From IMG/VR virus record IMGVR_UViG_3300035698_014534, positions 1 through 58,001 of that record: 58,001 nt of DNA. One strand, 5' to 3'. The position numbers and the translations under genes are program-made. Every line of letters begins with the position of its first letter. The first letter of the stretch is position 1. Below the pieces are notes generated by a model, which was given only the letters and a program-made list of their open reading frames with translations, had not been told where the DNA came from and ran no database searches. This document shows positions 1,504 to 52,538 of the stretch, piece by piece. The DNA comes from a virus.

Positions 1504-1590
1504 CATATGAAAATTAAATTCATTCTAAAAGCTGACCACATTATTGTCGACTCACCTAGTTAACATATGAAAATTAAATTCATTCTAAAA
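1471..1590 (+). repeat. Perfect 60-bp tandem duplication across a gene junction
   Basis: Bases 1471-1530 and 1531-1590 are identical. Each unit carries the end of the LamG gene (codons for ADHIIVDSPS plus TAA) and the start of the next gene (ATG plus KIKFILK). Copy 1 therefore starts a mini-ORF at 1507 (MKIKFILK then ADHIIVDSPS, 18 aa) that stops before the true gene starts at 1567. Perfect identity means it is very recent, or an assembly artefact. Confidence 0.95.
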
Positions 1591-2328
1591 GAAGAAGGGC
1601 CTCCTAATGCCCAATACTTTGAAAAATATAGGGATTTCTTCAATTCCGAGTTTGATTCTGAACCAATAAGGGGAGCAGGCGGATGGGCTGGATCCACTCA
1701 ATATTTCGATCTTCAAGGGTTCGGGGAAAAGATAGAGAAGCTAGGGTTTGCAAGGCTCGGAGAGGGAGCTTTCAGAGTGGTCTACGCTTTCCCAGATGGC
1801 AAATTTGTTCTCAAGCTTGCCAAACAAGTGGGTTCTCTCAAGATGAACAAGTTGGAAGTCAGCCCGAAGATACAAACAAAGTATTATTCCATCCTTCCCA
1901 AAATGTACATCTATGCAAATGATTATCGTTGGATTGTCAACGAAAGAGTAGAGAAGGCGACTGCCGCAGACTTGGAACAAATCTTTCCATTTTTAGGGGC
2001 AGGGGAGTCGACCCCATGGAGATTGGACAACAAAAAAGACGGTGATGCGGAAGAGTCTTTCGTAGGCTTTTTAGAACTTGTCCGAAAGAACGCGAGAGAT
2101 AACAATATAAACATTGCTATCATCAAATCTATGGATCGCATGAAGCGATATACCGCCAATTGGTTGTCGGATCCAGACGAAGACTATTACAAGATTTCTC
2201 CAACGACGAACAAGATCATCGAGTTCATGTTAGAATACAAAGTTGTACCGAGTGACCTTTGGCTGAAGAATCTTGGCAAGACGAGCGATGGCAGATTTGT
2301 AATTTTGGACTATTCGATCTTTACTTAA
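1567..2328 (+). CDS. Protein-kinase-fold protein with MKIKFILKE leader
   Basis: This 253-aa protein shows a kinase-like signature. It has a glycine-rich loop LGEGAFRVVY (64-73), a VAIK-like lysine in FVLK (K83), a hinge-like WIVNERVE (122-129), a catalytic-loop-like D230-L-W-L-K-N235 with the D(+5)N spacing of kinases, and a DFG-like Asp in VILDYS (D248). It is a paralogue of 4770-5450. The first nine residues, MKIKFILKE, match the leader found on five other unrelated proteins here. A T4-like phage could use such a protein as a packaged or early host-modifying kinase, but activity is inferred. It converges on the minus-strand gene that ends at 2321. Confidence 0.65.
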   Translation: MKIKFILKEEGPPNAQYFEKYRDFFNSEFDSEPIRGAGGWAGSTQYFDLQGFGEKIEKLGFARLGEGAFRVVYAFPDGKFVLKLAKQVGSLKMNKLEVSPKIQTKYYSILPKMYIYANDYRWIVNERVEKATAADLEQIFPFLGAGESTPWRLDNKKDGDAEESFVGFLELVRKNARDNNINIAIIKSMDRMKRYTANWLSDPDEDYYKISPTTNKIIEFMLEYKVVPSDLWLKNLGKTSDGRFVILDYSIFT

Positions 2329-2903
2329 AAATTGCGTGAGAAGGTTTGGCGGTAACTTGGCGTCTGAAATTCCACCCATTGATTCTTTCGACAATTGCTT
2401 GATAGTGTTCTTTTGTCAACTCTTCGGTATAGTATTCACCAGACCAGAGCATCTTGACAACTTCTTCCGGGTAGTAAATGCTTGATATGTCGGAATCGAT
2501 CCAGCTAAACCATATGTGCTTTTGTCCGAAAATGGATATTTCATAATCTGGTATTATCACTTTTGACCAAGAAGGCACTCCAACCCCACGACCCTGTTCT
2601 ACCTCTTCGGATCTTATTTCTACTCGGGTAGGATCCACGACGAATCCATCCACTGCACGGTTGACGTATATACGATCAGCGTTGTTTGCGAAAGGACTGT
2701 AATACTTCATCAAGAAGTTTCTTATCTCATCGTCGGGAATCTGCTCATCATCGATATCCATGTATTGAGTCGTCCCCAAATGAAACTGTAGGTTCTTTTT
2801 GGGATCGGCTTTGTTATGAAAGATGAAGAGTGGATCTTCTTTCTTTAAATCCCACTTAAAAAGGTGGTTTACAGATCCGTTTTTCACACTTAGAGCAAAT
2901 CAC
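2321..2903 (-). pseudogene. Zinc-finger/WC-family chimera, frameshifted at a five-base run
   Basis: Two overlapping frames appear to form one protein. GTG 2903 opens ICSKCEKRICKPPF and hits a stop after 15 codons. Dropping one base of the A5 run at 2858-2862 continues it as KWDLKKEDPLFIFHNK and on to the stop at 2321. As it stands, the long part can only start at GTG 2887 (188 aa). The stretch DPLFIF...NLQFHLG matches DPLFILI...KLEFHFG in the 7887 gene, so this looks like the C-terminal part of a WC-motif protein whose N terminus was replaced by a zinc knuckle. Function is unknown. Confidence 0.5.
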
Positions 2904-2906
2904 TTA

Positions 2907-3077
2907 TCAATCCTCATAAATTTCCATCTTCAGCAACTCCCTATATTCATCTGCTGTTATAATAGGAGATTGTTTAGCCTCTTCACACTGTTTTGAACAC
3001 CAGGGTTCAAAGTCTTTCTTAAAGAAAAGCTCAGAGCAAAGTCTACAATAAGCATGGCCGCAATAATCTATGCACAT
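2907..3077 (-). CDS. 56-aa treble zinc-knuckle mini-protein
   Basis: The protein starts MCIDYCGHAYCRLC and contains WCSKQCEEAK, giving seven cysteines and a histidine, typical of a small treble-clef or HIT/MYND-like zinc finger. A GAGAGG Shine-Dalgarno sequence precedes ATG 3077. It overlaps the upstream gene (3068-3193) by 10 bases, and its stop is followed four bases later by the GTG of the next zinc peptide. Function is unknown. Zinc binding is inferred from cysteine spacing. Confidence 0.6.
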   Translation of the reverse strand: MCIDYCGHAYCRLCSELFFKKDFEPWCSKQCEEAKQSPIITADEYRELLKMEIYED

Positions 3078-3193
3078 TTATCAATCCTCTCTTGTACCTT
3101 TGTGAAGGTACATAGACATGTTTCCAACTTATAGTGTTTTAATGGTGCTTCCCAATCTATTATGTCAAAAAGGGCTTTTAATCCATTGTTCAT
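3068..3193 (-). CDS. 41-aa hypothetical protein
   Basis: A short frame, MNNGLKALFDIIDWEAPLKH and onward, ends with two Cys (ETCLCTF) and a charged helix. AGGAAAG lies at good spacing upstream of ATG 3193, and the 3' end overlaps the next zinc minigene by 10 bases, which argues that it is a real operon member. No family is recognised. The roughly 100 bases upstream, back to 3300, contain only tiny frames that I do not call. Confidence 0.5.
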   Translation of the reverse strand: MNNGLKALFDIIDWEAPLKHYKLETCLCTFTKVQERIDKCA

Positions 3194-3299
3194 CTTATCT
3201 TTCCTTCAAATGTGAATCCCATTTTTATCCATCCCAGAGCGGGAAACAATCTTAGTCAATGTTTATGCGGACTTGCCATTTGGGGCAAATGTGAGCAAG

Positions 3300-3602
3300 C
3301 TATTCCAGAGGGTTAAGAATGAAGGTGATTAGATCATTTTCGATCTTTCTTGCCCTATTTCTTGCCCAAAATCGCTCTGGTCCGGTTTTAGTCTTGGTTA
3401 ATCCGATTCCATCATAGCCTAACATTGCTGATGGACACTTCCAATGCCACTTAATGTAATAAGTGCCCTGATACGGGCAGAGTTTTACTGTAGCACCAGA
3501 GGCTCTTGCTCTTTCCAAGAAAGGCTCCAATTCGTTTAATATACCAATTGGTTCGCCACCTTCATAATCAATTTCGCCAGTTATTACCCAAACTTCTTTC
3601 AC
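3300..3602 (-). CDS. 100-aa hypothetical protein
   Basis: The protein begins MKEVWVITGEIDYEGGEPIG and is a small mixed alpha/beta protein with a central CPYQGTYYIKWHWKCPS segment. The start is a GTG that overlaps the stop of the upstream zinc-ribbon gene (GTGA), so translation is probably coupled. It has no membrane segment or signal. The opening strand plus E-P-I-G-I-L and a following helix could suit a small regulatory fold, but I do not recognise a family. Confidence 0.6.
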   Translation of the reverse strand: MKEVWVITGEIDYEGGEPIGILNELEPFLERARASGATVKLCPYQGTYYIKWHWKCPSAMLGYDGIGLTKTKTGPERFWARNRARKIENDLITFILNPLE

Positions 3603-4346
3603 TTAATCCTACTTGCGCTACATTGCTTGCAGGTATAACATAAGCCATCTGGAGATCGTTTTCTCCTGCTAAAGTCCATTGTCGATTTTGCCGTGTCACA
3701 TCCGGTGCAACGTTTTGTTTCACCAATGATATACTCTGCTGGCTTTTTAAACTTCTCTTTTTCTTTTCGCTTAAGCCTGGACCTGGCCTGGGAAGCCTTT
3801 ACCTTGTCTGGGTTGTTCTCTCTATATTTTTTTCTTTTTGCTAAAATGTTCTTTTTATTAAGTTCGTAATGAACCCTCTTCTGTTTGAGGCGTTCCTTGC
3901 TATTCTTTCTTGGATTGTTCTTTATCCATTCTTTATGCTTTGCCTTAATCCTTTCCTTATTGGCTTTTTGATATAGCGCAACACATTCTTTGCACTTATA
4001 ACACAGTCCATCATTAGTTCTTTTATTCTTGGAAAACTTTACTAATGGCTTTTCCAGATTACATCTAGTACATTCTTTCATCTCATCAATCCTCTTCAAA
4101 AATTGACACCTAATCATTTGGCAAAAGTGACATATTGGGAAGAATATCTTATCCCCTTTGAATGGAGGAACGCAATCCGCATGTTCACATCTGGTACATC
4201 TTATCAAGACAGGTTTCCATTTTTTGAGTTCGTGGACACGGGCGCATTCATGCTGAAGGCATTCTATGCATAACGGGTAATTCGTTTCAAGGATGCCCCG
4301 AAATGGAGATGATATTTTTTTCGCCACACTCAACACAATTTATCAA
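3599..4346 (-). CDS. Multi-zinc-ribbon protein (Endo VII/HNH-type ribbons), frameshifted near its start
   Basis: The long frame (GTG 4336, 245 aa) has two copies of the ribbon found at the N terminus of phage Endo VII/HNH-type proteins: KECTRCNLEKP..DGLCYKCKEC and KRCTGCDTAKS..DGLCYTCKQC, joined by a very basic helix. No HNH core follows. Upstream are two more modules (LCIEC..HEC and IRCTRCEHADCVPPF..FPICHFC). A TTG frame at 4346 (MINCVECGEK) joins in frame if the A7 run at 4315-4321 is read as six, giving C-x2-C..C-x2-C. The segment is probably a fusion of several minigenes; internal starts at TTG (IRCTRC) and ATG (MKECTRC) are possible. A DNA-binding role is inferred. Confidence 0.55.
4131..4212. 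repeat. 82-bp dispersed direct repeat, copy 1
   Basis: Bases 4131-4212 match 5553-5634 at 81 of 82 positions. On the minus strand both encode the zinc module IRCT(R/K)CEHADCVPPFKGD..FFPI. Outside the block the sequences diverge abruptly. Here the module continues into a second knuckle (CHFC). This is recent duplication or recombination of a zinc cassette. Confidence 0.9.
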
Positions 4347-4349
4347 AGC

Positions 4350-4754
4350 TTAACCCGGTTTGTTATCCATTACCAATCTTTTAGGTCGAAAATTTCGAAA
4401 GCTTCTGACAGGATTACCCCATGGTAGGGTATAGTCACCAGTGGCTGCTTTGTCTAAATAAATCTTTTCAGGACTTAAAAGGGAGGTGTCGATCTTTAGT
4501 ATAATGATGTCTACCTTATCTCTGAATTTATCCCACCTGATACTTGAGAACTTCGCGTACTCATGTGCAACAACTGGATACTCGGACAAATATACAGGCG
4601 CCAGCGTATCCTTGTTGGTGTGCGCCCATGACTTGTTACTGTTGACATACCCCAGCCCGTTCTTTTCAATGGATGCCATGAAGGGGGCAAAGGTGGCGTG
4701 GAAGAGGAACGAGGGATGACCTTTAGACTCTTTCAGGTTAAATCTTACTTTTAT
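4350..4754 (-). CDS. ADP-ribosyltransferase-like protein with KVRFNLKE leader and ATA start
   Basis: An ATG at 4679 gives only 109 aa, but the frame is open upstream and encodes K-V-R-F-N-L-K-E followed by FLFHATFAPF. The codon where ATG is expected is ATA (4752-4754), preceded by GGGAG nine bases away. The paralogous leader at 5450 has ATG. With ATA as start it is 134 aa. FHAT (18-21), IEKNGLGYV and VYLSEYPVVAHEYA (54-67) then IIILKIDTS resemble small KptA/DarT-type ADP-ribosyltransferase folds (H-x-T, 'I..GL', 'YLS....A..YA'). It follows the kinase-like gene by 15 bases. The fold is a moderate-confidence guess; activity is unproven. Confidence 0.5.
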   Translation of the reverse strand: MKVRFNLKESKGHPSFLFHATFAPFMASIEKNGLGYVNSNKSWAHTNKDTLAPVYLSEYPVVAHEYAKFSSIRWDKFRDKVDIIILKIDTSLLSPEKIYLDKAATGDYTLPWGNPVRSFRNFRPKRLVMDNKPG

Positions 4755-4769
4755 TTGTCGTTTCTCCCA

Positions 4770-5450
4770 TTAGTAGAAAGCGATTGCTCTCTCGATATCG
4801 TCTCGGAAAGAAGCATCAATAATGACAATCTTTCCATTACTGGTCCCAAGATTATCTCTTCTGAGTTCTCCAGGCTTGATATCATATTCCATGATATAGT
4901 CTAGAATCAGGTGCCCTTTGGGGGTCAGGTCGTAGCCTCTGTAGTGCTCGGCCTCTGAAACGGCGGTTTTCACATCCTTCCCTTCATCGATCATCTTGTA
5001 GCGTATATCTGTGAAAATTTCGACAAGGACTATCCCTATTGGATCAATATATCTGCTTCTTTCAAATTTTGGGTTTATGATTTGTTCGAGGTCGCCTCTT
5101 TTTACTTGTGACGCCTTCTCTACAACGATCCATTCATAGTCCCTTGCGCTCATGTACATCTTCGGGAGAATGGCGCTGTATTTGGTTTGTACATAAGGGT
5201 CCACTTCTCTCTTGTTCATATTGCTATGGTTCTTCTCTTTTAGGAAGGCTACCTTCAATACATAATTGGAATCATCTGGGAAGGCATACGCCATCCTGAA
5301 ACCTCCTGCCCCTAAATATTTAAAACCTGCACTTATAAGAGCACGTTCTGCATCTTCCCCACTATGTTCGGAGAAGATGTGGTTGAGTATCCTTTTATAC
5401 TTTGAGAAAAATCCAAGGGTTTCCTCTTTTAAGTTAAATCTTACTTTCAT
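4770..5450 (-). CDS. Protein-kinase-fold protein with MKVRFNLKE leader (paralogue, Asp to Glu)
   Basis: This 226-aa paralogue of the gene at 1567 shares LPKMY, DYEWIV and GDLEQI with it. The kinase-like marks are LGAGGFRMAY (46-55), VLK (K66), WIVVEKA (107-113), E195-L-R-R-D-N200 and IVIIDAS (D212). The position equivalent to the catalytic Asp is Glu, so it may be inactive or altered. The leader MKVRFNLKE is nearly identical at DNA level to that of the ART-like gene downstream. CTATATAATA ends one base before the ATG. The two genes appear to be an operon. Confidence 0.65.
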   Translation of the reverse strand: MKVRFNLKEETLGFFSKYKRILNHIFSEHSGEDAERALISAGFKYLGAGGFRMAYAFPDDSNYVLKVAFLKEKNHSNMNKREVDPYVQTKYSAILPKMYMSARDYEWIVVEKASQVKRGDLEQIINPKFERSRYIDPIGIVLVEIFTDIRYKMIDEGKDVKTAVSEAEHYRGYDLTPKGHLILDYIMEYDIKPGELRRDNLGTSNGKIVIIDASFRDDIERAIAFY

Positions 5451-5550
5451 GTATTATATAGTTACTCTTGGAAACTATCTTGTCCTCAATGCAATCTCCA
5501 CAAAGGAGAAACTCTTGATCTTCTTCTAGATCAAAGACTTCAAAGCACAT
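5434..5550 (-). CDS. 38-aa Cys-containing mini-protein
   Basis: ATG 5550 opens MCFEVFDLEEDQEFLLCGDC, followed by a short charged tail, stopping inside the start of the kinase-like gene (17-base overlap). LLCGDC is a C-x2-C knuckle, and a single Cys is at residue 2. Its start overlaps the end of the zinc peptide at 5540-5629. The composition is clearly protein-like and acidic. It belongs to the local zinc minigene family by context. Function is unknown. Confidence 0.5.
   Translation of the reverse strand: MCFEVFDLEEDQEFLLCGDCIEDKIVSKSNYIIHESKI
5452..5460 (-). promoter_or_regulatory. TATATAATA element abutting a start codon
   Basis: Read on the minus strand, 5461-5448 is CTATATAATACATG, with the ATG of the kinase-like gene. 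The identical 14-mer occurs at 13809-13796 in front of another gene. If it is a -10 box, transcription would start at or inside the ATG, so either the message is leaderless or the element acts otherwise. Confidence 0.35.
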
Positions 5551-5629
5551 GCCATATTGGGAAGAATATCTTATCCCCTTTGAATGGAGGAACGCAATCC
5601 GCATGTTCACATTTGGTACATCTTATCAA
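5540..5629 (-). CDS. 29-aa truncated zinc module, TTG start
   Basis: TTG 5629 opens IRCTKCEHADCVPPFKGD and ends FFPIWHVL. It lies in the second copy of the 82-bp repeat and has lost the CHFC knuckle present in copy 1, so only the first knuckle remains. It is a duplicate, possibly non-functional. The TTG-ATA-A start context is shared with other peptides of this family. Confidence 0.4.
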   Translation of the reverse strand: MIRCTKCEHADCVPPFKGDKIFFPIWHVL

Positions 5630-5634
5630 GACAG
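5553..5634. repeat. 82-bp dispersed direct repeat, copy 2
   Basis: This is the second copy of the zinc-module block at 4131-4212, with one mismatch (t at 5613 versus c at 4191). It is followed on the coding strand by unrelated sequence that stops the frame early. Confidence 0.9.
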
Positions 5635-5639
5635 TTCAC

Positions 5640-5888
5640 TCATTTTATCAACACGCCTTGGTCGATCCGCTTGGTAGCCTCTAATTGTTCCTTGATGAAA
5701 CAAGCTGGGCAAGTACCTACGCCCTGGATTTGTGGATTATCAGGGTTTATAAATGAGTTGTTCTTACAACGAGATAGTCCTCCTTCTGCCCTATCTAACA
5801 AGAGGTAGCAAGGTAGGGCTTCTATTAAATTAAACATCCTAAGAACATCTTTCAGTGATATTGATACGATAATTTCGTCATCATCCAT
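5640..5888 (-). CDS. 82-aa Cys-cluster protein
   Basis: The frame is open further upstream, but the best start is ATG 5888 behind GGGAGG, giving MDDDEIIVSISLKDVLRMFN and onward. The C-terminal half has SRCKNN...GVGTCPACF, a likely zinc site. The stretch between this start and the upstream gene (5889-5982) is more GC-rich than its surroundings and holds no convincing gene. Function is unknown. Confidence 0.55.
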   Translation of the reverse strand: MDDDEIIVSISLKDVLRMFNLIEALPCYLLLDRAEGGLSRCKNNSFINPDNPQIQGVGTCPACFIKEQLEATKRIDQGVLIK

Positions 5889-5982
5889 CGTTTCGTTCCT
5901 CCCAGCGCCGGCTGGACGCAGCAAGTACGTCCACGACCTTACCACGGATGGGCGTGTGGGTCCAGTGCGGATCCCAAATTTA

Positions 5983-6165
5983 TCAATCCGGGGGCGAGTC
6001 ATAAACAATCTTGTGTCTTTTTGGAAATCTACAAGATGAACTCTCTGGATCTCTACCACAGTAGTCGCACAAACCCTTTTCTCTCTTTTCTTTTCTTTTC
6101 ACCAGTTCATTAATAAGAATTCGCTCTGTATATTCATCTAGTCCCATTGAATAGCTCATATTCAT
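5983..6165 (-). CDS. 60-aa zinc-finger mini-protein
   Basis: MNMSYSMGLDEYTERILINE leads into a basic stretch (VKRKEKREKG) and a knuckle LCDYCGRDPESSSCRFPKRH, which looks like a C-x2-C-x8-C-x4-H zinc finger. It ends in GAT-TGA-TAA, the same end context as the minigene at 2907. A second in-frame ATG is two codons downstream. Nucleic-acid binding is an inference from the basic region plus the finger. Confidence 0.6.
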   Translation of the reverse strand: MNMSYSMGLDEYTERILINELVKRKEKREKGLCDYCGRDPESSSCRFPKRHKIVYDSPPD

Positions 6166-6177
6166 CCCGTTTTGGTT

Positions 6178-6729
6178 TTATAAAGAAAACTTTGTTCTGT
6201 CACTGCCATGCCACAATTCGATATGGCTTACATTAAAGGAAATCCCCTTGGGAACTGACCCAATATATACCGGAGGTTCCTTCGTCTCATCCCATTTCCC
6301 AGTCTTGGGATAATAGGCTAAAGTCACATGAGGGGCGTAGGTCTTATCCATATAAGAATCCTGCACTTCTACTTGTCTTTCAATTAAGTTATTGTGAAGT
6401 TCCGCTCTCAAAGCTGAAACCCTCTGGGAGAAGGTTACCTTACAATGGGCAACCAAAGTTTCCTTTTCGGAGTCATCTCGATTATCAAAATATTCGACCT
6501 CTCCAATTGTGACAGTTAATGGGCCGCTGAAGAAGTCTTTTTCACGGTGGACTCTACTACTGGTCCAATGTCGTCAGAGAACTTGTCTCCGACATATAAA
6601 ACGGTGATGTGTGGGGGACTGTCGTCCTCTTCACCTAGTGAGGGAAATTGGGCATGGTATTCTTCGGGCACTCTAATAAAGATACAGATCCTTCTGACTT
6701 CTTTCGTTTAGTCTAAATCTAACTTTCAT
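6178..6729 (-). pseudogene. 2H phosphoesterase / 2'-5' RNA-ligase-like gene with two frameshifts and MKVRFRLNE leader
   Basis: Three pieces read as one protein. ATG 6729 gives MKVRFRLNERSQKD, the middle (about 6543-6690) in another frame gives ICIFIRVPEEYHAQF and PPHITVLYVGD, and the last piece returns to the first frame with VAHCKVTF and APHVTLAYYP, ending at 6178. HIT and HVT are the two H-x-T motifs of 2H phosphoesterases (LigT/CPDase family). The total, 552 bases, is a multiple of three, so the two shifts compensate. The second shift is at a five-base run (6538-6542). As written, only the last 92 aa or so could be translated alone. Enzymes of this family cleave cyclic nucleotides or 2'-5' linkages; here the gene is broken or misread. 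Confidence 0.65.
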
Positions 6730-7887
6730 ACTTTCACGTTTAATCTTCTTACCGTGAAGATACTCTTCAATCCGGTCGTTTATTAAAGCAATAAAACGTT
6801 TAAACTCTGGCAGTGTTTTTTCAGGTTCTTCAAGATAATCCAAAATCCACTTGGGCGTGAAAACTACCGCAATTTCTCCATTTCGTTCCCCTGAAGCAAA
6901 TGCGAAAACATATTCTTCTCCCTTGATCATCTCGATAAAGTTAAATACGCGCTCTGCCTTTAACTTCTTCTTAGTCATCCAATTGAGATCATATCTAATG
7001 ACCTCCCTGAAGGCTGTTTCATCGTGAACCCACTCTAAAAACGTTTCGTGTGCATGTTGGTAAAACACTTTTCTATATTTTTTAATCAAATCCAATGAAA
7101 GATTTTTGGGAAGCTCGTTGTTTTCTGGATCTTTAAACTGGTCCGACCCAAAATGAAATTCTAATTTATTCTCCTTGCTATCTTTTGGAATGAGAATGAA
7201 GAGAGGGTCATCTTTCTTGTGGTAATAGTCGTAATAGTTTTTACCACCCGTACTAGCCGTACACCAGTCCGTCTTGTACCCCAAATAACATGCGGCGGCC
7301 TGATTGTCAGGAATGTATATGGTATACTCGGAATCGTCAGATACGACACGATACTCTGACTTCTTTTTCAGGTTGGGCAAGGTGTTTAATTCTTCCATCC
7401 ATTTTCTATACTTAAGAGTTGACGCATCGGTCAGTGCATTAAGCTCATTGTCTCCTTCGATTCTCATCAGATCCCTCTTTTCAGGAGGCTCTATGAATCT
7501 CTGGGTTTGAAAGAACTCTTCGAACACACCCACATCGCCCATAAGAAATAAGTCCAGCGGCCCCCTGTTGATCCTGCTGCGATAGCTTTCTTCTCTAGAC
7601 GTGTCGGAGTCTCTAATAAAAGTGGTTATTGTCCATTGGAGGGCAAGAGCAATTTGGGCCGGTTCCAAATCGAGACTGGCAATTCCCAGTTTGAGTCTTT
7701 TGAATGTCAACTCTCCAGCTTTGTCTACCTCGCCCATATGCTGAAGGTCTCTGAAGGTGATAATCCCACCGGAATCTTTTGGAAGCTTTTCGAATTCTCT
7801 ATTGAGCCTCTTCTTAAACTTCTTAGATGTAACCCTTTGCCAAACATCTTCTATTTTGATTTCTTTTAATATAAATTTGAACTTCAT
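6673..7887 (-). CDS. WC-motif protein with MKFKFILKE leader
   Basis: This is a protein of about 386 aa, continuing to 404 because its frame reads through the ATG (6729) of the next gene. It starts MKFKFILKEIKIEDVWQRV. The core motif is AAACYLGYKTDWCTAS at about residues 207-222, then YYDYYHKKDDPLFILI and KLEFHFGS, shared with 10500-12437 (ASCYYGIDTTWCIS) and in part with 2321-2903. I do not know the family's function. The lack of its own stop, with the next start in frame, suggests a small indel near the 3' end or a real fusion. The leader argues for packaging with the other leader proteins. Confidence 0.6.
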   Translation of the reverse strand: MKFKFILKEIKIEDVWQRVTSKKFKKRLNREFEKLPKDSGGIITFRDLQHMGEVDKAGELTFKRLKLGIASLDLEPAQIALALQWTITTFIRDSDTSREESYRSRINRGPLDLFLMGDVGVFEEFFQTQRFIEPPEKRDLMRIEGDNELNALTDASTLKYRKWMEELNTLPNLKKKSEYRVVSDDSEYTIYIPDNQAAACYLGYKTDWCTASTGGKNYYDYYHKKDDPLFILIPKDSKENKLEFHFGSDQFKDPENNELPKNLSLDLIKKYRKVFYQHAHETFLEWVHDETAFREVIRYDLNWMTKKKLKAERVFNFIEMIKGEEYVFAFASGERNGEIAVVFTPKWILDYLEEPEKTLPEFKRFIALINDRIEEYLHGKKIKRESMKVRFRLNERSQKDLYLY

Positions 7888-7915
7888 ATCTTAAATATCA
7901 ACCAAAAGAAGAATT

Positions 7916-8131
7916 TTAAGTAAATCTCAGTTTATCAATGAGAAACTTTTTGATTTTCCCTTGCGGCATGTCCCACGCCCGAGACATAAGAGATTCAATT
8001 TGAAGAGACATCGGGTAAATCATACCGTCAATTCTCAAGAAGATATCCCAGACTCCGTTTCCCCAAAGCTTACCAAGAAGTTCAACTTCGGCCACTCTAA
8101 GGTCTGCCATGTGGCTTTCGAATTCACTCAC
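7916..8131 (-). CDS. 71-aa hypothetical protein
   Basis: GTG 8131 overlaps the stop of the upstream gene (GTGA), so translation is coupled. The product starts MSEFESHMADLRVAEVELLG and includes GNGVWDIFLRIDGMIYPM, a beta-rich stretch, before a basic C terminus. There is no signal or membrane segment. No family is recognised. Confidence 0.6.
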   Translation of the reverse strand: MSEFESHMADLRVAEVELLGKLWGNGVWDIFLRIDGMIYPMSLQIESLMSRAWDMPQGKIKKFLIDKLRFT

Positions 8132-8406
8132 AACGATTTCCTAATTCCTTTCAGAAGATAGTCAACTTCAAACTTAGATACTTTCAATAGATATTCTAGA
8201 TCGCTGGCCACTATTTCTCCAACCTTGCCAGACAAGAATCCCATATGGATTCCCAGTTGCCAATCTTGTCTCGGCTCTGGCAGCAGTTCCAAGAACAACT
8301 GTAGCCCCGCGCCCGTACCTATGCAAGAGGGACGATCCGTTTTTGAGACCCATTCCAATTTTGGCCAGTGTTGTTGGCATTTTTCAAGTAGCATCATTTT
8401 GCTCAT
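8128..8406 (-). CDS. 92-aa hypothetical protein
   Basis: The product starts MSKMMLLEKCQQHWPKLEWV. It contains GTGAGLQLFLELLPEPRQDW and ends with a leucine-rich helix and basic tail (LLKGIRKSL). Its start overlaps the end of the 8384-8566 gene, and its own end overlaps the next start. It belongs to the same tight minus-strand operon as the release factor. No family is recognised. Confidence 0.6.
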   Translation of the reverse strand: MSKMMLLEKCQQHWPKLEWVSKTDRPSCIGTGAGLQLFLELLPEPRQDWQLGIHMGFLSGKVGEIVASDLEYLLKVSKFEVDYLLKGIRKSL

Positions 8407-8566
8407 AGTATTGAACCAGTATACCCAATTTGTAAACTTTATCTACAATTGATATTACTTCATCTCTTGTAAATACCATGGTTTCTCTCGGTAGTCCGAG
8501 CGAGGTTATAATATCAACATAAATATCGTAGGAGTCCGTTCTGGACGTTGGGGTTATTTCCGACAT
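8384..8566 (-). CDS. 60-aa hypothetical protein
   Basis: The product starts MSEITPTSRTDSYDIYVDII and continues with TRDEVISIVDKVYKLG. It is an acidic small helical protein. ATG 8566 overlaps the last base of the release-factor stop (TAATG), and the 3' end overlaps the next gene by 23 bases. Operon membership supports it being real; function is unknown. Confidence 0.6.
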   Translation of the reverse strand: MSEITPTSRTDSYDIYVDIITSLGLPRETMVFTRDEVISIVDKVYKLGILVQYYEQNDAT

Positions 8567-9247
8567 TAAATAACATCCTCAATATGCCCCTTCATGTACT
8601 TCTTTGCACTCATTCTTTTCCCGTTTCGGTGATTGATAACACTATCGCGCTGGATAGCGATGGTTCTGACTTTGTCTCCCCTCATGCCAGATCCAATTTG
8701 CCCTTTTCTCTTGTTGTTCCTTTTGGAGATATCCTTCTCTTGTTGTAGCTCATCTAACTTCGAAGACAACAAAAGGAGAGCGAGTTCTTTATTTCGATGT
8801 TGGCTCCTTTCTGACTCAATTCTTACCTTTGTATTGGTAGGAAGGTGAGTCAGTTGAACCGCCGAATCAGTGGTGTTGCGGTGTTGCCCGCCAGGCCCCG
8901 ATCCCTTGCACGTCTTGACCTCTACATCACTCATGGGGATTTGGGTAGCCTTTTCTTCGTAGACGGGCAGCACGGCGACTGTGATGGTGCTTGTGTGGAT
9001 TCTGCCCTTGATCTCGGTCGGTGGGCAACGCTGGAACCTGTGTCCACCAGCTTCGCCCTTAAATAACTTCTGCACCTTCTTCCCAGATATCATCAACACT
9101 ATTAAAGAAGGAAGATGAGTTAATACCTCGATGTTAAAGGCAGTTCCTTAGTGCGAACTTTGTATAAATGTGCGCCTGATCCATGATTAATAGTTTGGCA
9201 TCCTTGCCGCCCTCTGCTGCTCTTATCTCTAGTATTACCTTTTCCAT
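8566..9247 (-). CDS. Class-I peptide chain release factor, RF1-type, split by a +1 frameshift
   Basis: ATG 9247 opens 37 codons (EIRAAEGGKDAKLLIMDQ) that match the start of RF domain 2, ending at CTT-TAA (9139-9134). Skipping one T continues as NIEVLTHLPSLIVLMISG to the stop at 8566, aligning without a gap to RF1. The fused product is 226 aa. It has the RF1-type codon-recognition tripeptide P-P-T (75-77, in QRCPPTEIKGRIHTS) and the catalytic GGQ (119-121, in GSGPGGQHRNTTDSA). Domain 1 is absent, as in short release factors such as PrfH. P-x-T predicts UAA/UAG reading. The upstream HTH gene overlaps by one base (TAATG). It would end translation or rescue ribosomes in phage-infected cells. Unshifted, the products are a 37-aa stub and, from GTG 9099, 177 aa. 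Confidence 0.8.
9133..9149 (-). other. Candidate +1 programmed frameshift site (CTT TAA C with upstream AAGGA)
   Basis: On the minus strand the order is AAGGA (9149-9145), ACTGC, CTT (9139-9137), TAA (9136-9134), C (9133). Bacterial prfB uses a Shine-Dalgarno-like element followed by CUU UGA C. The slip codon CUU-U and the following C match here; the stop is UAA and the spacing is five bases rather than three. A plain one-base indel is the alternative. Confidence 0.5.
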
Positions 9248-9441
9248 TATAAACCTTTCCTTTCTGCTATTAGCTTATTTAGTTCTTCAATTCTTTTAAC
9301 AACGAATTTCCTCATAACGTGAGAAGGAGTTGCACCATTTCTCCAACGTGTCACTGACGGAGTTGATACATCAACCCAACCTGACAATTCGTCATCTGCC
9401 AATTCACATTCTGTAATCAACTTGTGGAATTCTTCTTTCAT
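9247..9441 (-). CDS. Small XRE/HTH-like DNA-binding protein
   Basis: This 64-aa protein has the helix-turn-helix-like stretch LADDELSGWVDVSTPSVTRW followed by RNGATPSHVMRKFV and a charged C-terminal helix. The pattern 'L..wl.vs.psVtRWrnG..P' is typical of short Cro/XRE-type repressors. Its TAA overlaps the ATG of the release-factor gene, so the two are coupled. It may regulate this operon; the target is not visible. Confidence 0.6.
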   Translation of the reverse strand: MKEEFHKLITECELADDELSGWVDVSTPSVTRWRNGATPSHVMRKFVVKRIEELNKLIAERKGL

Positions 9442-9450
9442 CTTGAGCCT

Positions 9451-9531
9451 CTAAGATTTTACCGTTTCAAGAACAGTGTCGCATCTCGTACATGCATATA
9501 GTACAAACAGTTGTTTCACTCTGGTGGTCAT
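9451..9531 (-). CDS. Possible 26-aa zinc-knuckle peptide
   Basis: ATG 9531 opens MTTRVKQLFVLYACTRCDTV and stops after 26 codons, with one C-x2-C knuckle. GAGGGG is only one base from the ATG, which is poor spacing. Another frame over the same bases also has a knuckle (VCTICMYEMRHC), so this may be a decayed zinc gene. Low confidence. Confidence 0.3.
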   Translation of the reverse strand: MTTRVKQLFVLYACTRCDTVLETVKS

Positions 9532-9561
9532 ACCCCTCTGGAAGATACGATTCTATCGTGT

Positions 9562-9692
9562 TTAAAATTCAGCTTCATGTCTACAAAGGATTTTTAATTC
9601 TAAATCATGAATTGATTTCTTTTCTTGTAGAATTTCAATCTCGCAATCAATCTCCGTAAGGATTGCCAATAGTTGTTCTAATTTTTTTTCAT
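9562..9692 (-). pseudogene. 43-aa coiled-coil mini-protein with A8 frameshift
   Basis: ATG 9692 is followed by eight A and an immediate TAG. One extra A would give MKKK followed by LEQLLAILTEIDCEIEILQE and on to a stop at 9562. The downstream frame is clearly helix-forming. It is either an A8/A9 slippage (phase-variable or transcriptional) or a sequence error. Function is unknown. Confidence 0.4.
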
Positions 9693-9698
9693 ATTAAC

Positions 9699-9827
9699 CT
9701 AACAATTGTGGGACATTAAACTGGTAATGATTATCAGGCCGATAAAAAAATCATTTGTACTAACTGAATCTGTCAAACTACTCAAATCGCTCTCAAGTTT
9801 CTCAACTCTCTCTTCGATCTTCTTCAT
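9699..9827 (-). CDS. 42-aa coiled-coil protein with one membrane segment
   Basis: MKKIEERVEKLESDLSSLTD is a short heptad coiled coil, followed by a hydrophobic segment FFIGLIIITSLM that may cross or touch the membrane. ATG 9827 lies inside the end of the phosphoesterase gene (26-base overlap). Such small coil-plus-TM proteins are common in phage operons. Function is unknown. Confidence 0.5.
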   Translation of the reverse strand: MKKIEERVEKLESDLSSLTDSVSTNDFFIGLIIITSLMSHNC

Positions 9828-10467
9828 CAATCATCTCCCAAACGATAGGGTCTCTTAATGTAATATAGTCTTCACCAAGCATTGCCGCATTGATGCTAGT
9901 CTTGGCTCCGAAGTTCCGCATCACCACTCCACCCGACGAATGAATATGCCCAAATATGTGAAGGTCGGGGCGTAGGTGTAATAGGCGCTTATAGAGCATC
10001 TCGCACCCAACCGACATGCCATCCCGTATCTTGTCTAGAGTGCCATGAGCAGGGCCATGAGTAATGAGCACGTCTGTGTCGTCAGGGATCTTGTTCCAAC
10101 GATAGCGCAAGCCTACACCGTTTCGTCTTTTCATAAAAGCCCAATTGCCAAACTCAGGCGTCCAGGGAGAACCCCAGAATTTCACGCCGTCGATTACGCA
10201 AGCACTATCTTGCAGAAAGGTTATCCCCGCTTCTGCGAAAAGAATCCGAGCCCTTGGTCCGCTTTTCCCTTCCATCATTAAATCATGATTTCCAGCTATG
10301 CAAATCTTGTGCTCATATTCCTGCTTCTCCATCCACTTAATAAAATATTCTATATCTTTGAACAATCCAGAAGTTGAAAAGTCTCCAGAGTGAATAAGAA
10401 CATCCCCTTCGGGCATGTTCAAGTGTCCGTGTGCTCCATGCGTGTCGCTGATGCATACCAGTTTCAT
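9802..10467 (-). CDS. Calcineurin-like metallophosphoesterase
   Basis: This 221-aa protein has all the metal-binding blocks of the family: D8-T-H10 (ISDTHG), G28-D29 (HSGDF), G59-N-H-D62 (AGNHD), H137 (LITHGP) and G173-H-I-H176 (FGHIHS). It would hydrolyse phosphate esters using two metal ions. The substrate is not predictable, but single-domain proteins of this size in phages are often annotated as phosphodiesterases. Spacing to the large WC protein upstream is 33 bases, on the same strand. Confidence 0.88.
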   Translation of the reverse strand: MKLVCISDTHGAHGHLNMPEGDVLIHSGDFSTSGLFKDIEYFIKWMEKQEYEHKICIAGNHDLMMEGKSGPRARILFAEAGITFLQDSACVIDGVKFWGSPWTPEFGNWAFMKRRNGVGLRYRWNKIPDDTDVLITHGPAHGTLDKIRDGMSVGCEMLYKRLLHLRPDLHIFGHIHSSGGVVMRNFGAKTSINAAMLGEDYITLRDPIVWEMIDEEDRRES

Positions 10468-10499
10468 AATGTCACCTTATCCTATCGCACCAAACGGTG

Positions 10500-12437
10500 T
10501 CAAGCGGGGACTGGATCCCCGAGCGTTCCGTCAAGGCCGCTTTCTAACGCTCCTGTCGCCCTTTGATACGCCTTTGATATTTCCATAATGGATTTTATGA
10601 AAATGTTTGAAATATCAGACCAATTATCATCAATCAACTTAAAGAACTCAAATACAATGTCGTAATCGGTCTCTATATTGTGGGGTACTCTTATCCCAAG
10701 AGAGATCAAATCTGCGCCAATTCTTTTACCATTGCCATTTATCCCTGGTGTGATATTCACATTATAAACTTTGAAAGGTTGTTTCTTATATCTAGATTCT
10801 TCAAGAGGCAATTTTAATTGTGCAGACACTTCGTTGAAGTATTCTTCAATTCTATCTCCCACTAACAAATATATCTGCGTGATCCCGCGACTGCCAAATC
10901 CTGCAATTAATCTCGGAGGAAGGTAAAAATCAATCTCAGCGTTAATATCTAGGTACTCGGGGTTCTCTTCGTCTTCCGGGTCCAAATCAAGAACAAAGTT
11001 TTTGAATTCGTGATTCTGCATATCTTCTAAGTCCACATTGCTGCCATGCAAGAATCCTTTCTGAAGCAGCCTTCGTTTGACTTTTAAGAGATTGCGCTCC
11101 CAAGCCTCGTCTATTTCTTGTATATCAGATAAGAAGCTTTCCGTTTGGCCAAGATCAATCGCATGGTCAGTATCGGACCCTCTCCATTGCCAAAATATTT
11201 TCTTGTCATACTCATCAAGTTCAGATTCTACATAATCCATATTATACAAGTCGCCCACTAGAGGATTAAAACAGTCTTTAACCAAATCAATTTTTGGATT
11301 ATTCCAATCTATATAACCACTTTCTTTTGTAAAATCGGATATAGGGAAGGTTGGAAATAACATCAGTATATCTTGGTATATAAGGACGTGGATTTGCGGT
11401 GACCCTTCTTCTTCCCATTCGTAAGCTACCTCTATATGATTTAGTCTACGATTCATTTCGTTAACTGCTTCTTCTATTTCAGTGAAGTTTTTGGTATTCG
11501 GATTTTCTTCTATTATGAGCCCTGCATCTTCTTTGACTTCTTCAAGTTGATCGGTTGCCAACTCATGTATGTAGGATTCCGAACTATCGCGGATATTCTT
11601 TATATCCTTGTCGAACTCCTTGTCGAACTCCTTAGTCAGAAACTGGCTAATTTTCAGAATCTCGTCATCATCGAATACCTCAAGACTAATCCCCTGATCT
11701 ACTTTCTTCCTTAATGCTGCGGCCAATATATTATAAACAAAGTGCTCAAGAACGGTAGCCTCATCGATTGAATCATTTTTGGTATCAAAGAATTCCTCCA
11801 ACTCTGCTGTTCTTCCGTCATATACAAACGCAATCTTTCCGCCATCGCTCTTATTATCGTACCTATAGCTGTGTTTAAGGCGAACTATGACAAAAGACTT
11901 GCCCTGATTGGTATATCGGTCAAAATAGGGGCTATCGACGCCAGAAATGCACCATGTGGTATCTATTCCGTAATAACACGAAGCGTGTCGAGTTTGCGGG
12001 TAGACAGCCAACAGGAAGTCGTTGTCTTCAACCATGATGGATTCTTGATGGGCCTGTTTCGAATCTCGTCTTCTTTGTTCGGTTCTGGATTTCTCTCTTT
12101 CCATTCGATAGACTAGGTCACTGGCTTCTTGGTAAGAATACTTAAAAAGATCTCTACGTTCTGATGGGATTCTTTGTTTAAACCCCTCAAATTTTACGGC
12201 CGTATCGCCAATCATTATAAGAAATGCGCTAGACGGGACCGCACTGCCAAGTCCTATCAAATATTTATCATATTCTCGGACCATCCAAGGGATAAGCTTT
12301 TTATTTGGGGTTGTATCCATCTCTAAAAACTTATCAAAATCCCCGCTCTTGACCATTCCTGGGTACTTCTTTCTCAAGTCATCCAATCTGCCCTCTAGCA
12401 GAACAGCTTCGCTCAAAACAAACTTAAATTTCGCCAT
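10500..12437 (-). CDS. Large WC-motif protein with MAKFKFVLSE leader
   Basis: I place the start at ATG 12437 behind GGGAGATAAAA (645 aa) rather than at upstream in-frame codons (to 12506). It starts MAKFKFVLSEAVLLEGRLDD, followed by RKKYPGM and KKLIPWMVREYDKYL. The core has ASCYYGIDTTWCIS, a motif shared with the 7887 gene (AAACYLGYKTDWCTAS). The rest is acidic and unrecognised. The leader ends in LSE, with a second LLE four residues later, consistent with prohead-protease-type cleavage. The protein is cytoplasmic-looking, with no membrane segments. Packaging into the virion is inferred. Confidence 0.6.
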   Translation of the reverse strand: MAKFKFVLSEAVLLEGRLDDLRKKYPGMVKSGDFDKFLEMDTTPNKKLIPWMVREYDKYLIGLGSAVPSSAFLIMIGDTAVKFEGFKQRIPSERRDLFKYSYQEASDLVYRMEREKSRTEQRRRDSKQAHQESIMVEDNDFLLAVYPQTRHASCYYGIDTTWCISGVDSPYFDRYTNQGKSFVIVRLKHSYRYDNKSDGGKIAFVYDGRTAELEEFFDTKNDSIDEATVLEHFVYNILAAALRKKVDQGISLEVFDDDEILKISQFLTKEFDKEFDKDIKNIRDSSESYIHELATDQLEEVKEDAGLIIEENPNTKNFTEIEEAVNEMNRRLNHIEVAYEWEEEGSPQIHVLIYQDILMLFPTFPISDFTKESGYIDWNNPKIDLVKDCFNPLVGDLYNMDYVESELDEYDKKIFWQWRGSDTDHAIDLGQTESFLSDIQEIDEAWERNLLKVKRRLLQKGFLHGSNVDLEDMQNHEFKNFVLDLDPEDEENPEYLDINAEIDFYLPPRLIAGFGSRGITQIYLLVGDRIEEYFNEVSAQLKLPLEESRYKKQPFKVYNVNITPGINGNGKRIGADLISLGIRVPHNIETDYDIVFEFFKLIDDNWSDISNIFIKSIMEISKAYQRATGALESGLDGTLGDPVPA

Positions 12438-18645: not shown

Positions 18646-19276
18646 CCAACATATATTTGATCACCGTTTGTACGGAAAGATATATACCCTGTTCAACTTT
18701 AAGGGAGAGGCTCCGGTCGATTTGAAGAAAGTAATCTCTTTCATAGAAACAAACATTCCCTACCTACTTTTTAGTAAGGTAGACGCAATATACGTTAGTA
18801 AGTTTTCTAAATTGAAGAACCAAGGGATCAATGGACTTGAAGACCAAGGTGCAATCTACATCACCGATGACTTCAGTTCAGAGGCAGATCTCATCAAGCG
18901 CATCCTGCATGAAGCAACGCACGCATACGTCTCCGAACCAGAGACAATAAAATCAATAGATCAAGAGTTTGTTTGGAAGAAGCAGACTTTACTCAAGAAG
19001 ATTCAATCAGTCTTCAGCGATAAAGAAGGTTGGGTTATGGAAAAGAGTTACATTGACTTTCTAGAAGAAAACGTTCAAGCTATCAATATGTTAATCAAGG
19101 ATCTGTTTGTTTCGCCATATGCTTCAGCAAATAAAGAAGAGTATGTCGCTTCTGGTGTTGAGGTTTATTTCCTTGAAAACAAACAATGGCTAAAAGAATT
19201 CTGCCCAGATCTCTTCAGTCTTATCGAAGATATATTAATTAAAAACATGGAGTTAGACAACAATGAGTCGCATTAA
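18620..19276 (+). CDS. Zincin-like metallopeptidase (HEATH motif)
   Basis: A 218-aa protein with the zinc-binding helix ILHEATHAYVSEP (H-E-x2-H) at about residues 96-108, and a downstream EEYVASGVEVYF around 174-185 that can supply the third ligand. No signal peptide or membrane segment is present. The motif and size fit short phage metalloproteases or lethal-factor-like zincins. The target is unknown. The gene overlaps the following glycosyltransferase by 14 bases. Confidence 0.65.
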   Translation: MRKSIKKNNQHIFDHRLYGKIYTLFNFKGEAPVDLKKVISFIETNIPYLLFSKVDAIYVSKFSKLKNQGINGLEDQGAIYITDDFSSEADLIKRILHEATHAYVSEPETIKSIDQEFVWKKQTLLKKIQSVFSDKEGWVMEKSYIDFLEENVQAINMLIKDLFVSPYASANKEEYVASGVEVYFLENKQWLKEFCPDLFSLIEDILIKNMELDNNESH

Positions 19277-20516: not shown

Positions 20517-20767
20517 TGAAAATCACAAAGCAAAATGAAGACCTTTTCTTCCCAGAAGGTACAAGCATCAAAGAAGTTTGGGAAAGTTTAAAAGAACTGC
20601 GACACCTCGGAATCGATATGTTTGCCGAATTCGATCCTACTACTCAAAAGATCAGCATGAACATCACAGAAGGTCCAGAAAATTGCCTGACGTGCTCTGT
20701 AGGCCCAACCCTACCCACGTATTCCGTTGAAGAGAATGTAATCTATATTCAAAAGTGGAGAAAGTAA
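20516..20767 (+). CDS. 83-aa hypothetical protein
   Basis: ATG 20516 overlaps the previous stop (TAATG); an in-frame upstream start at 20471 is less likely. The product starts MKITKQNEDLFFPEGTSIKE and includes GIDMFAEFDPTTQKISMNIT and an ENCLTCSVG with two Cys. It is a small alpha/beta protein between two glycosyltransferases and ends in TAATG overlapping the next. No family is recognised. Confidence 0.6.
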   Translation: MKITKQNEDLFFPEGTSIKEVWESLKELRHLGIDMFAEFDPTTQKISMNITEGPENCLTCSVGPTLPTYSVEENVIYIQKWRK

Positions 20768-33768: not shown

Positions 33769-33778
33769 GAGAACAGTA

Positions 33779-37189: not shown

Positions 37190-37490
37190 GGATAACTTCA
37201 ACCTTTATGATATAGAATTCTCAGTGACCACTTTGGTCCTAGCAGAAGATGTATCAGACGCAATTTGTATCGTTCGCGATAACATCTATGATATTGTGGA
37301 TATGGAAGTGCAAGTCTTGCCCTCAATCTGCAAGAGTGTTGGAAAGGAACGGGAAGGTTGTTATCCTTGGACATATGACGGAGTATCTTATTCCAATAGC
37401 GAGACGGCTAGATATTGGTGTGAACAGACCGCTCGTAAACTTCAGAGAGAGGCCGAGTCGAAAATGAAGCAAGGAACATTCGACTTTTGA
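37182..37490 (+). CDS. 102-aa hypothetical protein
   Basis: GTG 37182, seven bases after GAGG and overlapping the previous stop, is preferred over in-frame ATG 37098. The product starts MNKDNFNLYDIEFSVTTLVL and includes AICIVRDNIYDIVDMEVQVL and ETARYWCEQTARKLQREAES. A compact alpha/beta protein with no known motif. Confidence 0.55.
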   Translation: MNKDNFNLYDIEFSVTTLVLAEDVSDAICIVRDNIYDIVDMEVQVLPSICKSVGKEREGCYPWTYDGVSYSNSETARYWCEQTARKLQREAESKMKQGTFDF

Positions 37491-39940: not shown

Positions 39941-39948
39941 GAGCAGCG

Positions 39949-40799: not shown

Positions 40800-40807
40800 G
40801 AGTTGAA

Positions 40808-50397: not shown

Positions 50398-50766
50398 ATG
50401 CAGAAAGGGATAGGAATACAGATACCTTTAAAATACGACAAAGTTGATGGTCCTTGGAAGGCGACTAAAACTTATCTTGATGCCATTAAGCAAAACTTTA
50501 AATACCTCTTGCTAACGGCCCCAACGGAAAGGGTTATGGATCCCAACTTTGGAGTTGGGATAAAGGATTTCCTGTTTGAAAACCTCGATGACAATATCTT
50601 GTCCAAGCTGAGTGGAAGGATATATTCGCAGGTAAATTCATATATGCCCTTTTTAACCATCATAGATGCCGACGCAGTTATGAGAGAAAACACTCTGTAT
50701 GTGAAAATAAATTATTTTGTGGATAAGCTACAAATCACAGATCAAATCTATTTAGAGGTAGCATAA
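50398..50766 (+). CDS. 25: Baseplate wedge protein, gp25-like (GPW_gp25)
   Basis: A 122-aa protein. TYLDAIKQNFKYLLLTAPTE followed by RVMDPNFGVGIKDFLFEN is the GPW/gp25 signature ('qn...lL.T..gER.m.p.fG.gl..flFe'). The length matches T4 gp25 (about 130). gp25 joins gp6 and gp53 in the baseplate wedge. TAATG overlap leads straight into gp6. Confidence 0.9.
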   Translation: MQKGIGIQIPLKYDKVDGPWKATKTYLDAIKQNFKYLLLTAPTERVMDPNFGVGIKDFLFENLDDNILSKLSGRIYSQVNSYMPFLTIIDADAVMRENTLYVKINYFVDKLQITDQIYLEVA

Positions 50767-52538
50767 TGACTCATAATATAAAACCGGTTATAAAATACAC
50801 CAACAGGGACTATTCTCGTATAAGAGAAGATCTCATTCGACATGCCAAAACTCAGTATCCAGACACATACCGAGATTTCAATAAGGCATCTTTTGGTGCT
50901 CTTTTATTCGATCTGGTCTCCATCATTGGAGATCAACTATCATTTTACATTGATTACAATACCAACGAGGTATTGCTTGATTCAGCAATTGAATACAAAA
51001 ATGTCGAAAGACTTGTCAGGAATCTTGGGTATAAGAAGCTAGGTGCGCCCGCTTCTCAAGGGGAAGCGGTTTTCTATATCAGAGTACCAGCATCTGCCGG
51101 TGTTCCAGACTTAGATTACGTCCCGGTCTTGGAGAGAGGCTCATCGTTCAGATCGACCACCGGGGCCAACTTTACACTCACGGACGACATCTATTTTTCA
51201 GATAATTTGACAGAAATTGAAGTATCGCAAGTCGATAGTTCAACGGGTGACCCTACATTTTTTGCCATGAAAAGTAGAGGAACTGTCATTTCTGGACAGG
51301 AATATATCCAACAAACGCCAGTTACGTCCACGGAAAGCTTTTTAAAGATAAGAATTAGAAACCAAAATGTATCAGAAATCATCTCTGTTGTGGACTCTCT
51401 TGGTAATGAATATTACCACGTTGACTTCTTAAGTCAAAATATTGTATTTGATGCGATTCGGAACACTCAAGTAAATGCGTCTACAGTTCCGTATAAACTT
51501 ATACCTAAACATGTGCCAAGAAGATTTGCGATAGAAAAGGACGACAGCGGATTGTTCCTTGTGTTTGGAAACGGGTCTGTGGACAAACTGGTCGATCCTT
51601 ATAAGGTACTTCTTGATTTTAAAAGCAGAAACTATGTTTCGGATAAGTCCTTCGATCCGTCTAATATCATGGAATCCGATAAACTTGGGATCAAGCCCGT
51701 CAATACGACCCTGACCATCAAGTATCGGGCGAATGACAATGCGAACGTCAACGTGCCCATAGAGGGGCTAAACAAGGTCCTCCTTGGCAAGTTTAGGTTC
51801 CCAACGAACGGGCTGCTGGCTGCCACCGAAACGGCCGTCAGAACGTCACTGCTGGTCGACAATGAGCATCAGATTCTCGGCAGCATATCCGATGTTTCTG
51901 TAGATGAATTGAAAACTCGCGGGCGCGATAACTTTGCAACTCAAAACAGAGCAGTTACTAAGGAAGACTATATTGCACTTTGCTACAGAATGGATTCAAA
52001 ATTCGGTTCTATTAAGCGCGCAAATCTAGTTCAAGATAGGAAATCGTTTAAAAGAAACTTGAACATGTATGTTATGTCAGAAGACGCCCTCGGAAATTTA
52101 ACCCAAGCCAACTCAGAATTGAAGAATAACTTGAAGATGTGGATTTCCCATTATAAAATGATTAACGATAGTGTTGATATATTAGATGCCAACATTGTTA
52201 ATTTCGGGATTGATTTCGAAGTGATAGGAATGCCAAATCACAAAAAGTACAAAATACTCTCTGATTGTATCGATGCTCTCAGGGATCTATTCAAGAGAAA
52301 ATTTGATATAGGAGAGCCAATCGTAATCTCCAGTATATACAAAAAACTCAACTTAGTCGAGTCTGTTTCGGACACGACCAAAGTTATTATAAGAATAAAG
52401 AACACTTCGGGATATAATTTCTCCGCATTTGACAGAGAGGAATATTTATCAGCAGATGGGCGAGTTCTAACCATTCCAGAAAATGCAATATTTGAGTTAT
52501 TGTATCCCAACAAAGATCTCAGAGGAACTATAACATAA
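50766..52538 (+). CDS. 6: Baseplate wedge protein, gp6/Baseplate_J-like
   Basis: A 590-aa protein. YTNRDYSRIREDLIRHAKTQ followed by YPDTYRDFNKASFGALLFDL and SIIGDQLSFYIDYNTNEVLL is the conserved N terminus of T4 gp6. A Baseplate_J-like core follows, with DELKTRGRDNFATQNRAVTK then EDYIALCYRM typical of the 'a....r..~R.vt..Dy..l' motif. gp6 forms the inner ring of the baseplate. T4 gp6 is about 660 aa. Confidence 0.9.
   Translation: MTHNIKPVIKYTNRDYSRIREDLIRHAKTQYPDTYRDFNKASFGALLFDLVSIIGDQLSFYIDYNTNEVLLDSAIEYKNVERLVRNLGYKKLGAPASQGEAVFYIRVPASAGVPDLDYVPVLERGSSFRSTTGANFTLTDDIYFSDNLTEIEVSQVDSSTGDPTFFAMKSRGTVISGQEYIQQTPVTSTESFLKIRIRNQNVSEIISVVDSLGNEYYHVDFLSQNIVFDAIRNTQVNASTVPYKLIPKHVPRRFAIEKDDSGLFLVFGNGSVDKLVDPYKVLLDFKSRNYVSDKSFDPSNIMESDKLGIKPVNTTLTIKYRANDNANVNVPIEGLNKVLLGKFRFPTNGLLAATETAVRTSLLVDNEHQILGSISDVSVDELKTRGRDNFATQNRAVTKEDYIALCYRMDSKFGSIKRANLVQDRKSFKRNLNMYVMSEDALGNLTQANSELKNNLKMWISHYKMINDSVDILDANIVNFGIDFEVIGMPNHKKYKILSDCIDALRDLFKRKFDIGEPIVISSIYKKLNLVESVSDTTKVIIRIKNTSGYNFSAFDREEYLSADGRVLTIPENAIFELLYPNKDLRGTIT

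Follow-up and report, generated by a model that had tools for sequence, protein, structure and literature searches.

The internal head proteins of bacteriophage T4 (IPI, IPII and IPIII) and the injected ADP-ribosyltransferase (ART) Alt carry a capsid targeting sequence that is cleaved by gp21, and it was through this shared leader that the injected proteins of T4 were originally found. In the T4 record, both IPII and IPIII start with MKTYQEFIAE, the peptide used for comparison in the original prediction made for the DNA studied here, and IPI starts with MKTFKEFTSTTTPVSTITE. For packaging and targeting, the first ten residues of IPIII are enough, and within the targeting sequence residues 4 and 7 are important to targeting and residues 8 and 10 to processing (PMC9026906). 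After injection, Ip1, Ip2 and Ip3 each block a different GmrSD nuclease, disarming host defences (PMC12373910). The present analysis concerns a nine-residue peptide, M-K-[VIF]-[KR]-F-x-L-x-E, found at the start of six reading frames, or close to it, in IMG/VR record IMGVR_UViG_3300035698_014534. This linear virus record of 58,001 bases, the whole of which is referred to here as the window, is a fragment of an uncultured T4-type virus of bacteria. The peptide quite probably functions as the leader of the T4 internal proteins does, namely as a capsid-targeting sequence removed by cleavage.

In phiKZ-like giant phages, an S77-type protease (SPN3US gp245, phiKZ gp175) cuts its substrates after Glu (PMC10052503, PMC9026906). 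The propeptides removed are comparable with the window leaders as read here, being N-terminal, carried by head and ejection proteins and cut after Glu, but they differ in their S/A-x-E motif, in their length (mostly 111–254 residues) and in that no short leader is shared between them. All six window leaders end in L-x-E, in agreement with the gp21-type ending (L/I/F)-x-E and not with the S/A-x-E of the phiKZ type. Host-modifying enzymes, ART among them, are also predicted to be packaged and injected with DNA as parts of polyvalent proteins (PMC5512222). Enzymes of this kind would be common to both systems; however, polyvalent proteins are multidomain polypeptides, whereas the window enzymes are separate proteins with one leader each.

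As in the T4 internal proteins, the window peptide is a short leader at the extreme N terminus, with an MK start and a hydrophobic-x-Glu end, on otherwise unrelated bodies. By contrast, the remaining residues and the hydrophobic spacing are not those of T4: hydrophobic residues alternate (V/I/F3, F5 and L7), and the aromatic residues 4 and 7 of T4 are not matched. The cargo also differs in including kinase-like, 2H and WC families (WC being a name coined in this analysis, from the motif C[YF][YL]GxxTxWC), and is likened to that of T4 from its sequence. The window leader would thus work like the T4 capsid targeting sequence, without necessarily being homologous to it. All six leaders fall in the accessory region of the window between 1567 and 12437, as follows.

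1567..1593, plus strand: MKIKFILKE, leader of kinase-like protein 1
5424..5450, minus strand: MKVRFNLKE, leader of kinase-like protein 2
4728..4754, minus strand: IKVRFNLKE, leader of the ART-like frame, with codon ATA in place of ATG
6703..6729, minus strand: MKVRFRLNE, ahead of the broken 2H gene and within the open frame of the upstream WC gene
7861..7887, minus strand: MKFKFILKE, leader of WC protein 1
12408..12437, minus strand: MAKFKFVLSE, leader of WC protein 2; the LLEGR motif common to the family comes next

Each of the leaders named in the original prediction was present at the position given there. A strict motif scan in six frames yielded five ATG-started matches in the window and none in 200 first-order Markov shuffles of it. 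Damage or a missing ATG in two of the six frames would favor chance or an annotation artefact as the origin of the pattern; the shuffles have already refuted this explanation, the probability of which is negligible. Alternatively, the shared start could be a mosaic or expression cassette, in which a 5′ module was copied by recombination and selected for translation rather than for the peptide. AAA dominates the lysine codons after the ATG, as might be expected of such a module, and a 60-bp tandem duplication takes in the kinase-1 leader. However, the leaders have a mean pairwise DNA identity of 0.69, as against 0.31 just upstream and 0.26 just downstream, third positions differ in 0.52 of leader codon comparisons as against 0.21 for first and second positions, and the invariant Leu7 is encoded by four codons (CTA, TTA, CTG and TTG). 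Given these dissimilar flanks, the four Leu7 codons and the third-position divergence, conservation sits at the level of the peptide, and neither a common promoter nor recent copying of DNA accounts for it. The main cause cannot be a promoter or ribosome-binding cassette common to the genes, and, since relatives have unrelated but analogous leaders instead, a copied 5′ module of any kind is a very remote prospect.

The tandem duplication (∼1480–1591) spans the last part of the upstream gene together with the initial residues of the kinase-1 leader, which is present twice as a result. Its first copy reads MKIKFILKADHIIVDSPS and then a stop; it represents either real slippage or an assembly artefact.

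The proteins to which the leaders belong, together with a related fragment, are listed below.

1567..2328, plus strand: kinase-like protein 1, 253 residues (PHROG 4301, 6e-7; PHROG 18305 “kinase”, 0.004)
4770..5450, minus strand: kinase-like protein 2, 226 residues (PHROG 4301, 3e-10; Pfam YrbL, 6e-5, below cut-off)
4350..4754, minus strand: ART-like frame (label from the original prediction), starting with ATA
6178..6671, minus strand: 2H phosphoesterase of the 2′-5′ RNA ligase superfamily (Pfam PF13563, 2e-4, below cut-off)
6673..7887, minus strand: WC-family protein 1, a 404-residue open frame that includes the 2H leader (PHROG 28193 and 17056, and alignments)
10500..12437, minus strand: WC-family protein 2, 645 residues
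2321..2887, minus strand: WC-family fragment without a leader (E 4e-6 to WC protein 1)

One short leader is therefore carried by bodies of four families. The original prediction had spoken of six unrelated proteins; the shared leader stands, but the six frames comprise two kinase-like proteins, two WC proteins, the ART-like frame and the 2H protein. Nor do all six behave as genes that start with the leader, given the missing ATG of the ART-like frame and the broken state of the 2H gene. The two kinase-like proteins are paralogous (E 4e-27, 40% identity). The structure model of kinase-like protein 2 is poor (predicted local distance difference test score (pLDDT) of 58), with kinases as the best Foldseek matches, and the glycine-loop, Lys, Asn and Asp motifs are kept between kinase-like protein 2 and a homologue in contig G006 that bears another leader. 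The ART label proved to be a matter of appearance only: the frame has no family match in Pfam and no match in the PDB. Its start is ambiguous, with ATA in frame and a nearby ATG, overlapping the stop of the preceding gene, in another frame. The 2H gene is broken in this contig because its leader lies within the open frame of the upstream WC gene, which runs past it from 7887 to 6673 without a stop, and its domain is split over two further frames (6516–6671 and 6178–6456).

WC proteins 1 and 2 have the WC domain in common, and the first element shared by the family is itself L-x-E-G-R. The leaderless fragment is probably a remnant, a decaying copy. For the first 300 residues of WC protein 2, predicted from 48 sequences, a mean pLDDT of 85 was obtained; the model has no fold match in the PDB and weak viral matches of low TM-score, which include PcfJ-like phage proteins and so offer a faint resemblance to the polyvalent system, although PcfJ is not named in the text of PMC5512222. 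The family is widespread in marine viral contigs (L257–L333), where tandem copies are common, and is a promising candidate for a protein that is commonly injected.

Relatives of the window's phage were sought through its T4-type genes, which include the following.

50766..52538, plus strand: T4-type baseplate wedge gp6 (PHROG 219 and 10646), query for finding relatives
44105–44854: late sigma factor-like gene

An alignment search of IMG/VR with gp6 returned 599 related stretches, from which 17 long contigs were taken as whole records; single-protein queries against viral contigs with the kinase, WC protein 2 or gp6 had found no relatives, whereas the alignments did. Each relative has leaders of its own, distinct from those of the window. 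Two classes were defined: class A (MKITKxxLKQIIKEE), which occurred 29 times at N termini as against 7 times internally, and class B (MKLLLENWRKFLxE), with 13 and 2 occurrences, respectively, the internal sequence searched being five times the N-terminal. A 22-residue class-A leader gave no match in named phages by tblastn.

In single genomes, such leaders were present on a large scale. In Salicola phage SCTP-2 (MF360958.1), leaders of the type MK[IV]..L-x-E, such as MKINDLLKEN, MKIKQLFES and MKVKHITQYLFES, start 26 of 448 genes as against 2 of 1687 internal Met positions, and 15 families are represented among the 26 tagged bodies. Contig G019 has leaders such as MKHIPTFEQFLNE at the start of 27 of 140 genes, compared with 1 of 461 internal Met positions, and the 27 bodies are mutually unrelated at E 0.001, giving 27 body families. 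Comparison with the T4 record showed MKHIPTFEQFLNE to be close to MKTYQEFIAE, which makes this the dialect nearest to T4. The tagged set of SCTP-2 (L114–L133) includes a series of WC-family genes at ∼30–43 kb; G019, a viral contig of 126 kb (L246–L252), has most of its tagged genes in one run at 1.3–20.7 kb.

The strongest observation of the analysis is that leaders are swapped on homologous bodies. The kinase-like body bears MKVRFNLKE in the window, MKLLLENWRKYLAE in G006 and VKLLLENWRKYLTE in G023 and G024, and in the latter two contigs several unrelated genes neighboring the kinase-like gene share its class-B leader. The WC body bears MKFKFILKE and MAKFKFVLSE in the window, MKVKHITQYLFE in SCTP-2 and MKNFIKLFENYRRFLNEE in G001. 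In 77 further marine loci, WC bodies have a range of starts, many of them [FL]L-x-E, and at several of these loci an adjacent unrelated gene uses the leader dialect of the WC protein. Given that homologous bodies bear different leaders in different phages, the leader is, on these comparisons, a module joined to the bodies and characteristic of the phage, not of the body.

An uncleaved docking tag for some other destination, such as a phage replication compartment, a host membrane, a chaperone or a host protease adaptor, would also produce a shared leader. Most of the tagged window genes lie in accessory regions, away from head genes, and the window leader looks strand-like, unlike that of T4; both points suit such a tag. 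The association of leaders with head genes in relatives speaks for the capsid instead. An S77 prohead protease is encoded by each of the five named phages tried and by 5 of the 17 long marine contigs, so that these relatives, like T4, combine this protease with T4-type head genes. Leaders of the same layout adjoin it: class-A leaders are next to the protease gene in G001, G003, G005 and G011 and near it in G018, and class-B leaders are found in its vicinity in G024 and immediately after it in G032. At locus L269, WC genes bearing class-B leaders stand immediately upstream of the genes for terminase and portal. The protease itself starts with MKLLREYYELC and variants, with an early L-x-E. At the position where T4 gp23 is cleaved, eight relatives have in their capsid proteins a conserved [LIV]-x-E with A, S or N as the small residue after it, as in LLRE|A, LLKE|S and MLKE|S (example, NQAKELLREASSMA), and this is a predicted cleavage site. 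The L-x-E with which the leader ends corresponds to that of these predicted sites.

Between the protease and capsid protein genes, relatives also have a small head gene that starts with MK(K/R)SELK..LKPLIKECIKE, like the class-A cargo leaders; the cargo leaders might mimic this start.

Annotation of a virion is available for Pseudomonas phage PA5oct, in which EST35_0205 is a WC homologue (E 7e-13 to a marine WC protein). The protein starts with MKLFEVFTLYE and is annotated as structural, with a note of electrospray ionization tandem mass spectrometry (ESI-MS/MS). With a WC homologue thus annotated as a virion protein, in addition to the protease neighbors and the matching L-x-E ends, an uncleaved docking tag is unlikely. 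Alternatively, the leader could mark virion proteins outside the head interior, for example for attachment to the baseplate or neck, given that the PA5oct annotation gives no position within the particle and that tail proteins of RaK2 have a common N-terminal motif, albeit a longer one of ∼50 residues (PMC3622015). Set against this are the association of leaders with protease, portal and terminase genes, the protease-site ending of the leader and the internal location of the T4 precedent, which together make a tag of this kind highly improbable.

Further genes of the window may be noted. A release factor-like protein with PCRF and RF-1 domains (Pfam, 3e-27) is phage-encoded at 8566–9099 on the minus strand. 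Five nucleotide-sugar epimerase-like genes (PHROG 540) lie on one strand at 31357–43356 (plus) and, with glycosyltransferases at 19263–21975, constitute a large sugar-modification region. The T4 late promoter consensus TATAAATA was not found near the tagged genes.

The capsid-targeting and L-x-E cleavage signal put forward in the original prediction is the best reading of the leader because leaders occur on unrelated cargo, are swapped between phages and neighbor the protease, because capsid proteins carry a corresponding L-x-E and because the PA5oct WC protein is annotated as structural. This support comes from relatives more than from the window itself. The gp21-like protease sought in the original prediction was found in long relatives and not in the 58-kb fragment, which holds no head genes.

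Several observations weigh against the capsid-targeting interpretation. No capsid, portal or prohead protease gene was recognized within the window, and the mechanism is deduced for a phage known from a fragment without head genes, with sequence evidence as its basis. The hydrophobic spacing of the window leader (3, 5, 7) is unlike that of T4 (4, 7, 8). The exact window leader, expected to recur in relatives, is not kept there save in one G018 protein (MKIKFKLKERD), the one credible other user in IMG/VR, which sits in a gene group with other leaders; the remaining exact-pattern matches were mostly an unrelated 46-residue protein (MKMKFTLKE..) and were rejected as credible users. A leaders-near-protease test, set beforehand on ten held-out contigs, was equivocal: 4 of 10 matched, all through one conserved head gene starting MKKSELK..LKPLIKEC, and these were not counted as support for cargo leaders. 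In PA5oct, loose L-x-E starts were not enriched among proteins detected by mass spectrometry (15 of 85 versus 38 of 198, P 0.68). A tighter pattern derived from SCTP-2 was enriched among the proteins so annotated (6 of 85 versus 1 of 198, P 0.003), in a test that was partly post hoc, the pattern having been applied after the list was seen. Over the relatives, a generic L-x-E near the start was mildly above control. Because it is only mildly above control there and unenriched in the PA5oct proteins, the L-x-E motif alone is too weak, and the signal comes from the clustering of leaders within one genome.

If the leader acts in capsid targeting, the following sequence of events may be envisaged. 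The tagged proteins would be made late in infection and would attach through their first residues, K-[VIF]-[KR]-F, to a component of the prohead core. After completion of the shell, the S77 prohead protease of the phage would cut after L-x-E, and the freed kinase-like, ART-like, 2H and WC proteins would remain in the head with the DNA and be ejected into the next host cell. A scheme of this kind would account for every observation made here. For the window's phage, packaging, cleavage and injection are inferred, with a protease that would be encoded outside the fragment. Each phage lineage would have its own leader dialect, which presumably evolved together with the core proteins and protease of that lineage.

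T4 provides the precedent for the principle; what is new is the dialect, the cargo families, the exchange of leaders between phages and how many genes of one genome are tagged. Literature searches, whose coverage mostly left out subscription journals and preprints, returned no report of such leaders beyond the T-even phages. For divergent T4-type and jumbo phages, the evidence leans slightly toward a dialect-specific N-terminal packaging code, in which [LI]-x-E leaders have been copied onto dozens of unrelated cargo genes, the co-injected set can be read from the genome and WC proteins are among the most widespread marine cargo. Such a label could let injected proteins be recognized from sequence alone. 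If uncultured phages share the principle, injected effectors, including kinases, phosphoesterases, ADP-ribosyltransferases and WC proteins, could be cataloged by grouping the N termini of a single genome. If true, a code for loading the head, its co-evolution with core proteins and protease, and the use of the leader as a packaging tag would be testable in the culturable phages SCTP-2 and PA5oct.

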